Assembly (NCBI GenBank): GCA_001789555.1
Contig: MFZZ01000044.1
Location: forward strand, 15,924-50,011
Direction of reading: 5' to 3'
DNA: 34,088 nucleotides
Source: Candidatus Roizmanbacteria bacterium RIFCSPHIGHO2_12_FULL_38_13
GTDB taxonomy: Bacteria; Patescibacteriota; Microgenomatia; UBA1406; GWC2-37-13
Part shown: in pieces, positions 16,696-21,984 of the stretch
How positions within the stretch are numbered: the first letter of the stretch is position 1
Layout of the letters: each line of letters opens with the position of its first letter
The notes under the pieces: generated by a model
What the model saw: only the letters and a program-made list of their open reading frames with translations
Databases searched by the model: none
What the model was told of the DNA's origin: nothing
Made by a program: the position numbers and the translations under genes

Positions 16696-17562
16696 ATGTC
16701 ACAAGAAAAAAATATATTTAACCCAAGCTCCATCGCCATCGCTATGATAACGCATTACCCCAAATGGTATCGCGGAAATATGCAAAGCATTAAGAATACC
16801 GATAAAATCCGAGGGGATCTGGCAATCGAGACCATAATCAAAGCACGACAACAAGGTTATCACGTTCTGGTCGCAGACGGTCAAAGCTCAAAAACTTTCA
16901 GAAAAACTCTTTCTCAAATGCCAGAGCTCAATCTCATCAAGCGCGAGTCGATGAAGCGGAGACTGGCAAGAAAGCAGGTCATCAAAATGGCTCAAAAACT
17001 GAATGAAGTTAAAGTGATCGTAGAGACAGAGGCAGAAAAAGTATCTCTCATCACAAAATGCATTCCAATGATTACAGACTTAATTCTGAATAACAAAGCA
17101 GATATCGTGGTTCCGAAGCGAAATCTTGAGCTTTTCAAAAAAACCTACCCTAATTATCAGTACGAGTCAGAGATAGAAGGAAATATTTTATATAACGAAA
17201 TACTGAAAACTAGTGGTTTCAGAGATCAAAAAGATGAGGATCTTGATCTTTTTTTTGGTCCGGTGGCAATGAAAAATACTAAAATGGTTGTAGAGTTATT
17301 TTTAGGAAACTTTGGTTTTAAAGTCGATTTAAATGCCAAATCAAGACAGTTTTTTCAACAAGATGAATACGGATTTTTACCGATAGTCGCTGCTCTAAAG
17401 AACAAATTAAGAGTAAAAAGTGTAGAAGTGCCTTTTGAATACCCAAAAACTCAAAAAATGAACGAACTGGCTGCCGTAGGAGAACTCTTTCGAGAAAAAC
17501 GAAGAAACCAGCGGATGAGTATTTTGATTGACTTACTGTATTTTGTTCAATATTTGAAGTAA
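16696..17562 (+). CDS. Hypothetical protein, possibly GT-A-like glycosyltransferase
   Basis: 288 aa; ETIIKARQQGYHVLVADGQSS...KRRLARKQVIKMAQ...VIVETEAEKVSL is loosely GT-A-like; follows 16256-16678 by 17 nt. Confidence 0.5.
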   Translation: MSQEKNIFNPSSIAIAMITHYPKWYRGNMQSIKNTDKIRGDLAIETIIKARQQGYHVLVADGQSSKTFRKTLSQMPELNLIKRESMKRRLARKQVIKMAQKLNEVKVIVETEAEKVSLITKCIPMITDLILNNKADIVVPKRNLELFKKTYPNYQYESEIEGNILYNEILKTSGFRDQKDEDLDLFFGPVAMKNTKMVVELFLGNFGFKVDLNAKSRQFFQQDEYGFLPIVAALKNKLRVKSVEVPFEYPKTQKMNELAAVGELFREKRRNQRMSILIDLLYFVQYLK

Positions 17563-18847: not shown

Positions 18848-19834
<987 letters not shown>

Positions 19835-19903
19835 TTAAGTTTAAGTATAGTAAATCCTGAAATTATAGCAAGTAATTAGATAATTGTTCAGATAACAATA
19901 ACT

Positions 19904-19932
19904 TTGACATTCTGCCTTATTATTTATAAAAT
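19904..19932 (+). promoter_or_regulatory. Sigma70-type promoter: TTGACA-N17-TAAAAT
   Basis: TTGACA 19904-19909, 17-nt spacer, TAAAAT 19927-19932; predicted start about 19938, at the 5' strand of the closing stem. Confidence 0.7.
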
Positions 19933-19936
19933 TAGT

Positions 19937-20187
19937 TAGCTCTTTGAAAAATGAGATAATTTTCAGGCGTGTGGTCCCGCCATCGGCGGGAAAACGAGGA
20001 GAAGGACCCGCCGTTTTAGGCGTGGAATCGGACCTCTCCCGATCTAAATCGGGAGGGAGTATCTGCGGAAACCTTCAGGTTGTGATTGACAACCTTCAAT
20101 GTTTTGTACAAATTTTGGAGTAATCCAGAAACCAAAAGCAAGACAATTCAATAATTCATTTTTTCCTATCTCATCTTCAAATAGCTA
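19937..20187 (+). ncRNA. Putative structured non-coding RNA, ~250 nt, unidentified class
   Basis: Ends pair: TAGCT/AGCTA (5 bp), TTTGAA/TTCAAA (6 bp), ATGAGATA/TATCTCAT (8 bp) between 19937-19958 and 20167-20187. Inner hairpins: CCCGCC-ATC-GGCGGG, CTCCCGAT-CTAA-ATCGGGAG, GGTTGT-GATTG-ACAACC, TTTTGG...CCAAAA. No ORF across it. Confidence 0.65.
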
Positions 20188-20211
20188 CATTATTATTTTA
20201 TACTTAAAGCT

Positions 20212-21984
20212 ATGTGCGGCATCTATGGTTACATTGGGTCAAAGAGTGCTCATGAAGTTATAACTGATGGACTAAAACGTCTGGATTACCGTGGCTATGA
20301 TTCGTGGGGCGTGGCCGTAATGAATGAAAAAGACATCGAAGTTACCAAAGACGTGGGCTTGGTAAAATCGATTGAGGAGACAGCGGCAAAACACAGCCAC
20401 ATTGGCATCGGACATACTCGTTGGGCGACCCATGGTGCAGTGACGGTATTGAATGCCCATCCTCATTTATCAACCGATAAAACATTCACACTTGCCCAAA
20501 ATGGTATTGTAGAAAACTTTAAAGAGCTCAAAGACGACCTTGTCAAAAAGGGTTATAAATTTGAGTCGCAAACAGACACCGAAGTAATAGTTCGTCTCAT
20601 CGAGGAAGAAATGAAGACTTTACCCAATATTCATGACGCCATCATCAAGACATTCAGGAAACTCACCGGCAGAAATACCATTATTGTGTTAACACATAAA
20701 GGAGAAATAATCGCGGCTCGCAACGGCTCGCCGCTCGTCATTGGTCAAAATTCGAAAACAAGCGAAATGTATGTTTCATCAGATACACTGTCATTTGCGC
20801 CATATGTCGACGAGATATTGGTCATGGAAAACATGCAGATTGTGTATCTGACCGAAAATAAGATCAAAGCCCACGATATGGCAAAAGGCACGGATTTTGA
20901 TCCGCAGTTTGAAAAACTTGATGTGAAAAATAGCATTGTTGACAAGGCGGGATATGAACACTACATGCTCAAGGAAATCCACGAAACCCCAGAGTCAATA
21001 AGCGCAATACTGCACTCAAACACCGAAAAATATCTAAGCCTTGCCGGTCTTTTAAAGACGTCAAGAACTGTTTACACAATGGGGTCGGGGAGTGCGGGTG
21101 TAGCAGCAGCACAGATAGCGTTTTACTTACGACAGAATTCTAAACTAAATGCGATCAGTCTAATCGGTGCAGAAGCCCAAGAATATTTTCCACTTTTTAC
21201 AAAGGATGACGTTATTATTGTACCTTCACAAAGTGGTGAGACTGCAGATGTACTTGAGGTTCTTGAAGTTATTAAAAAGAAAGGTACACACATCGTGAGT
21301 TACGTCAACATGCCAGGCTCCATGATAACGCGCATGTCCGAGATCGGTTTTCTCGCCGAAGCAGGCCCAGAGGTTTGTGTCATGTCAACAAAAGTATTTA
21401 CATCGCAAATTGCCTGGGGATACTATGTTTCCAAATATATCATGGGCAATAAAGATCTTGGCGAAAAGGAGTTGATAACTTTGACAAAAACTATGAAGGG
21501 CTATCTTGAGGATAAGAAAAATCATGATGCTCTCATAGAGCTTGCGAAAATGCTCAAAGAAAAACACGATATTTTTCTGCTTGGCAAGTATCAAAACTTT
21601 GCCGTGATGCACGAAGGTATGATCAAGCTCATCGAGGGAACTTACAAACATGCTCATGCGCTGCCAGCCGGAGATCTGAAACATTATGCAATCACGCTTA
21701 TAGAGCAGGGAGTGCCGGTGATCGCAGTATACGGTGATGACATAGCAAACTCTGATATCGAAAATTCAATAAGTCAGGTTAAAGCGCGCGGCGCAACAGT
21801 TATCGGTGTCGGACCGATACGACATGGTAATCTTGATCATTTCCTCCGGATCCCAAATACTGGAGAAACTCAAGCGATAATGAATATCATTCCGCTACAA
21901 TTACTCGCATATTATCTTGCTAAAGAACTGGGAAACAGCATTGATAAGCCAAGGAATATAGCTAAAAGTGTCACCGTGAAGTGA
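20212..21984 (+). CDS. glmS: Glutamine-fructose-6-phosphate aminotransferase (isomerizing)
   Basis: MCGIYGYIGSKSAHEV, LDYRGYDSWGVAV, HTRWATHGAV; C-terminal SIS domains, ending LAKELGNSIDKPRNIAKSVTVK. Confidence 0.95.
   Translation: MCGIYGYIGSKSAHEVITDGLKRLDYRGYDSWGVAVMNEKDIEVTKDVGLVKSIEETAAKHSHIGIGHTRWATHGAVTVLNAHPHLSTDKTFTLAQNGIVENFKELKDDLVKKGYKFESQTDTEVIVRLIEEEMKTLPNIHDAIIKTFRKLTGRNTIIVLTHKGEIIAARNGSPLVIGQNSKTSEMYVSSDTLSFAPYVDEILVMENMQIVYLTENKIKAHDMAKGTDFDPQFEKLDVKNSIVDKAGYEHYMLKEIHETPESISAILHSNTEKYLSLAGLLKTSRTVYTMGSGSAGVAAAQIAFYLRQNSKLNAISLIGAEAQEYFPLFTKDDVIIVPSQSGETADVLEVLEVIKKKGTHIVSYVNMPGSMITRMSEIGFLAEAGPEVCVMSTKVFTSQIAWGYYVSKYIMGNKDLGEKELITLTKTMKGYLEDKKNHDALIELAKMLKEKHDIFLLGKYQNFAVMHEGMIKLIEGTYKHAHALPAGDLKHYAITLIEQGVPVIAVYGDDIANSDIENSISQVKARGATVIGVGPIRHGNLDHFLRIPNTGETQAIMNIIPLQLLAYYLAKELGNSIDKPRNIAKSVTVK

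Follow-up and report, generated by a model that had tools for sequence, protein, structure and literature searches.

The window analysed here is a stretch of 34,088 nucleotides from the genome of a Microgenomates bacterium (Patescibacteria). Within it, the region 19904-20190 sits between two divergent genes: a gmd-like gene on the minus strand (18848-19831; TIGR01472, 406 bits, slightly below the cut-off of 415), and glmS on the plus strand (20212-21984), encoding a glutamine--fructose-6-phosphate transaminase (isomerizing) of 590 aa (TIGR01135, 511.9 bits, cut-off 418). A 288-aa ORF (16696-17562, plus strand), near the gmd-like gene, a beta-helix protein and a polysaccharide flippase, has no NCBIfam or Pfam match.

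The elements of the region described below are all on the plus strand. It opens with a sigma-70-type promoter (19904-19932): TTGACA at 19904-19909, a spacer of 17 nt, and TAAAAT at 19927-19932. With 11 of 12 consensus matches this is the best of six promoter-like sites in the region, where 1.6 would be expected. The start predicted from it, at about 19937-19940, falls on the base of a long closing stem, here called P0, which has 19 pairs, one mismatch and one small internal loop; further hairpins lie inside. The 281-nt segment folds at -90.6 kcal/mol, far more stably than dinucleotide shuffles (z -5.8; 0 of 200 as stable), and no long ORF crosses 19904-20190. In these respects the original prediction described the region correctly: promoter, closing stem, inner hairpins and absence of a crossing ORF were all found as it had them.

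Identity and distribution of the leader RNA

The original prediction did not recognise the class of this RNA. A covariance-model search (cmscan, Rfam 15) places it in a family already described: the glmS ribozyme, RF00234, matches end to end at 19955-20155 (model positions 1-167; 56.5 bits against a curated threshold of 37; E 1.2e-10). This is the sole Rfam match within the whole window, and from 19850 to 20260 no other family appears up to E 0.1. The alignment takes in the cleavage segment, P1, the ACGAGGA core, P3, and P4 with P4.1; 57 nt separate the match from the ATG of glmS. The identity of the ribozyme core is near certain.

Between ribozyme and glmS there is no terminator-like site, the only one in the region being the ribozyme's own P3 hairpin; moreover, relatives keep the order promoter, ribozyme, glmS, with glmS directly downstream at nearly every related locus. 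The structured RNA is therefore the 5' leader of a glmS mRNA, containing a glmS ribozyme, and not a separate RNA. A promoter-like site of its own and a closed, discrete fold would also suit a separate, new structured ncRNA, as originally predicted; but the end-to-end family match, the missing terminator and the glmS context here and in relatives leave that reading with next to no probability, and it was rejected. The TATACT sequence before the ATG, which had been taken for a promoter of glmS itself, is a weak site (9 of 12) in an AT-rich tract, and gives no argument for a separate transcript. What stands of the prediction is a structured RNA upstream of glmS with its own promoter and a real closing stem; the new class and the separate transcript do not.

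At E <= 0.001, RF00234 is matched in the family by 22 of 72 genomes and in the order by 25 of 83; among sampled genomes the figures are 51 of 373 for the class (43 of them above the Rfam cut-off) and 23 of 380 for the phylum. One Microgenomates genome carries, in addition to its full match, another that is weak (29.7 bits, below the cut-off); the two lie at G272:C11:9882-10089 (L051) and G272:C2:5885-6094. A Candidatus Kaiserbacteria record carries a SAM riboswitch (RF00162, 62.3 bits; L033:4525-4621, minus strand). In the paper collection searched, none links Saccharibacteria or the Candidate Phyla Radiation to the glmS ribozyme, or Patescibacteria to glmS and riboswitch; the one paper on riboswitches and Microgenomates leaves the glmS ribozyme untreated. 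Little work has been done on gene regulation in Patescibacteria, and the present result assigns a metabolite-dependent ribozyme to Microgenomates and to other members of this group.

Variants of the ribozyme core

The RF00234 alignment, at model positions 12/13, puts the predicted self-cleavage site between G(-1) and G1, at 19966-19967. The P2.2 5' strand follows at 19968-19973 (C2 G3 U4 G5, bulged U6, G7), pairing with 20063-20067; then come the P1 hairpin (19975-19991; UCCCGCC-AUC-GGCGGGA), present both in the alignment and in the MFE fold, and the ACGAGGA segment (19994-20000), which in the alignment is the first strand of P2.1 and part of the active site. Inside P2 (20001-20076, with 20001-20005 paired to 20072-20076; alignment and sequence inspection) lie the P2.2 3' strand and an insert peculiar to the lineage, which contains a 10-bp hairpin (about 20034-20059); a stretch here has 59 nt vs 12 in the RF00234 model. 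The alignment also gives the P3 hairpin (20077-20100, with 20077-20083 paired to 20089-20095), and P4 with P4.1 (20100-20145, with 20113-20119 paired to 20124-20130). By inspection, the P3 loop AUUG (20085-20088) can pair with CAAU (20097-20100) as a 4-bp P3.1 pseudoknot.

Numbered after the published core (PMC7125110), the window reads G(-1)/G1 C2 G3 U4 G5 U6 G7 G8, with C52 U53 G54 C55 G56 as the P2.2 3' strand. C2-G56, G3-C55 and G7-C52 are kept, as is G at +1; U4.G54 and G5.U53 are wobbles, and U6 is bulged. The counts that follow are approximate for P2.2 and the core, the automatic choice of the P2.2 3' strand being evidently wrong for a few loci (e.g. L009, L025 and L059). The tandem U.G/G.U at 4-54/5-53 is the commonest state of the class (29 of 54 loci), vs C-G/C-G in 20 of 21 Clostridia/Bacilli loci. 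ACGAGG, at 19994-19999 in the window, is kept in 52 of the 54 class loci scored. The base at -1 is G in the window and three other class loci; the remaining 50 of 54 class loci, and all 21 Clostridia/Bacilli, have A there.

Such changes raise the question of decay. The G at -1 and the two wobbles might mark an inactive ribozyme, the more so as changes at 4, 5 and 53 are mostly strongly harmful in the consensus background (PMC7125110). Against this, the three Watson-Crick pairs, ACGAGG and the bulged base are all kept, and 29 of 54 class loci share the identical P2.2 combination, which argues for a maintained variant; in addition, U6 and G8, both present here, were slightly more active than the consensus in vitro and rescued other mutants (PMC7125110). 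A decayed or inactive core is thus very unlikely.

A different arrangement is found in family f64 and some members of the class, where GCG(A/G)CUG or GCGUAUG stands opposite CAGCGG, mismatched in the standard register. Moving the bulge to position 4 or 5 restores the pairing (C5-G54 with U6-A53, or U4.G54 with U6-A53); judged by sequence, the P2.2 bulge in these loci is apparently at 4 or 5 and not at 6. This reading agrees with a bulge shift inferred from double mutants (PMC7125110). The Patescibacteria variants, tandem G.U and apparently shifted bulge alike, resemble, in natural form, rearrangements that until now had been deduced from maps of mutants in vitro. The f64 loci L073-L078, L080 and L082-L086 are compact glmS ribozymes of about 130-140 nt.

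The closing helix P0

P0 joins a 5' arm upstream of the cleavage site (19937-19958) to a 3' arm (20167-20187) by three helices: an outer one of UAGCU (19937-19941) with AGCUA (20183-20187), a middle one of UUUGAA (19943-19948) with UUCAAA (20176-20181), and an inner one of AUGAGAUA (19951-19958) with UAUCUCAU (20167-20174). The first 19 and last 10 positions of the RF00234 model are unpaired, so P0 is an architectural addition outside the curated model: the match to a known family settles the core as described, and does not extend to the closing stem. Pairing of the flanks by P0 is a variant; unpaired flanks are a feature of the curated model, not a requirement of the ribozyme class.

The original prediction had proposed a search for covariation in this stem, and both arms do co-vary in relatives. 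The swap test used exchanges 3' arms among loci, leaving unchanged the composition and whatever sequence is conserved within an arm. True pairings were the more stable both at 25 loci of the window's order (z -5.5, P<=5e-5) and at 29 other loci of the class (z -6.1, P<=5e-5); with the 3' arm reversed as a control, z was 0.25 for the order and -2.5 for the other class loci, and part of the swap signal in the latter may be composition. Longer arms gave z -6.6 (order) and -4.9 (rest of class), or -3.8 and -2.0 after removal of the six strongest loci; the co-variation holds when any one locus is omitted. The window's 5' arm scores -20.9 with its own 3' arm vs a mean of -11.2 (sd 2.7, best -18.9) with those of 53 relatives. 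These complementarity tests are blind to strand, the opposite strand being about as strong in the class; the strand is fixed by RF00234 and glmS.

At the level of single pairs, MAFFT alignment of whole arms left some helices out of register, and 16 helices of 7 bp from the order were therefore registered by hand; the percentage paired is biased by this, and the swap test is free of the bias. In these helices two-sided changes occur at all seven pairs of the inner P0 helix (17 cells; 0 of 500 shuffles), and the fourth pair alone is seen as U-A, G-C, C-G, A-U and U.G.

In most class loci P0 encloses the core directly, through linkers that are several nt long and variable; a clear P0 is absent at L023, L024, L065 and L090. 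In family f64 the swap test does not support P0 by co-variation (z +2.4), and there a short GGGA:UCCC stem is conserved in sequence. At 21 Clostridia/Bacilli loci the swap test gave z -0.6, which leaves P0 unsupported as a feature of that group, and so as a general glmS feature. Single loci among them (L112, L113 and L115) do have P0; with wider flanks in the test z was -3.1, in a set including L111, by far the strongest pairing.

The comparison of sequences gives good evidence that P0 is a real, conserved helix, and we read the locus with high confidence as a glmS leader that contains the ribozyme and a P0 both genuine and conserved. As a lineage-specific addition it is probably, not provably, new. 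No description of a P0-like stem was found in the literature; an earlier mention is possible in McCown et al. 2011, reportedly the main survey of glmS ribozyme variants.

Possible roles of P0 and likeness to known systems

For most loci of the window's order the predicted starts, taken from the best consensus promoter-like site near each locus and not from mapped ends, coincide with the base of P0, at its AGCUC (median 34 nt upstream of the cleavage site). Those of f64 fall 19 nt upstream (IQR 19-20), at the GGGA of a P0 of 4-7 pairs; placement is looser in the rest of the class (median 39, IQR 29-49), and scattered in Clostridia/Bacilli, where P0 is absent as a rule.

One way to account for P0 is as a seal on the 5' end. 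Transcription would start at the base of P0, and about the first 20 nt of the mRNA would pair with the segment just after P4; the 5' triphosphate end would be sealed in the helix, and the uncut message protected. When abundant, glucosamine-6-phosphate (GlcN6P), the product of GlmS, would serve as cofactor of self-cleavage between 19966 and 19967; the cut would fall inside P0, 3' of its 5' arm, and part the message from the sealed end; the mRNA, left with a 5'-OH, would be open to RNase J, and glmS expression would fall. RNase J is encoded in the window's genome (487 bits, cut-off 400). The scheme follows Bacillus subtilis, where cleavage is GlcN6P-dependent and the 5'-OH glmS product decays by RNase J1 (PMC3997798; PMC11780869). 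RppH of B. subtilis acts poorly on a 5' end whose first bases are paired, since it must have two or more unpaired nucleotides there (PMC3997798); hence the proposal that P0 protects the uncut message. The idea of a shield is weakened in that, with 19 bp, P0 would not let go of the short 5' piece once the cut is made; even so, the 5'-OH end thus created would be free of the seal. A protective role of P0, taken alone, has a probability somewhat short of even. That Patescibacteria glmS ribozymes are in general sealed at the 5' end by P0 until a metabolite-triggered cut, and that P0 replaces a Shine-Dalgarno-like stabiliser of Clostridia, we put forward tentatively. If P0 is indeed a 5' shield severed by the ribozyme, there would be a simple physical reason for one cut near the 5' end to silence the message.

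Nearly as good is the idea that P0 aids folding, closing the domain, bringing the substrate strand to the core, preventing misfolding of the leader, and so raising the cleavage rate; we regard it as a serious but still doubtful candidate. Its placement directly around the core in most class loci fits, as do the class core with its P2.2 wobbles, which might need help, and the known stabilisation of the glmS core by peripheral helices (PMC11602151). The length and variability of the linkers fit less well; Clostridia manage without P0, and folding aid does not predict a promoter placed at the P0 base. P0 might instead act in translation, the 3' arm shutting the ribozyme off from the AU-rich region where glmS starts, so that this region stays single-stranded: the arm ends 24 nt before the ATG in the window, the interval is AU-rich without a Shine-Dalgarno sequence, and in 15 of 25 order loci the ribozyme has a stretch containing CATTA downstream of it. 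But within the order ribozyme and ATG stand 37 to over 140 nt apart, and at other loci of the class P0 occurs together with a separate Shine-Dalgarno sequence near the ATG; this role is unlikely.

The CATTA-type stretch of the window (CATTATTA, 20189-20196) is the same or similar in L006, L007, L009, L012, L013, L014, L019, L021, L023 and L025. In the order it mostly stands directly after the P0 3' arm; elsewhere it occurs in 1 of 29 other class loci, 1 of 12 f64 loci, and 4 of 21 Clostridia/Bacilli loci.

The closest known system is the RF00234 ribozyme itself, studied in B. subtilis, B. anthracis and Thermoanaerobacter tengcongensis. The window shares with it P1, P2, P2.2, P3, P4, P4.1, the ACGAGG core, and the position before glmS; it differs in being wholly enclosed by the extra P0, which the Rfam model lacks, in having tandem U.G/G.U for C-G/C-G in P2.2 and G at -1, and in the long insert that adds a hairpin ahead of the P2.2 3' strand.

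Stab-SD, of the Bacillus thuringiensis cry3A type, likewise sits near the 5' end and may guard mRNA against 5'-exonuclease, and comparable anti-SD complementarity exists in Clostridia glmS leaders, upstream of the cleavage site. Paired with the 16S 3' end, the leader before the cleavage site has a mean anti-SD energy of -12.7 kcal/mol in Clostridia/Bacilli (z -2.5 vs shuffles) and -5.6 kcal/mol in the window's order (z -0.3). The order would thus use a helix and not a ribosome-binding sequence; the comparison is one of how things work only. Shine-Dalgarno-like sequences upstream of the ribozyme are seen in Clostridia (L099-L101, L103, L105-L107, L109, L111, L113 and L114) and at class loci L040, L041, L044, L045, L047, L050 and L055, 20-50 nt before the cleavage site and far from any glmS start codon; they resemble Stab-SD 5' stabilisers, and self-cleavage would remove them.

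A final likeness is to the 5'-terminal stems that guard bacterial mRNAs from RppH and RNase J/E: the window likewise pairs its first nucleotides, if the predicted start is right. Unlike those stems, its loop is a whole self-cleaving ribozyme, so that a metabolite could cancel the protection; the resemblance is analogy, not homology.
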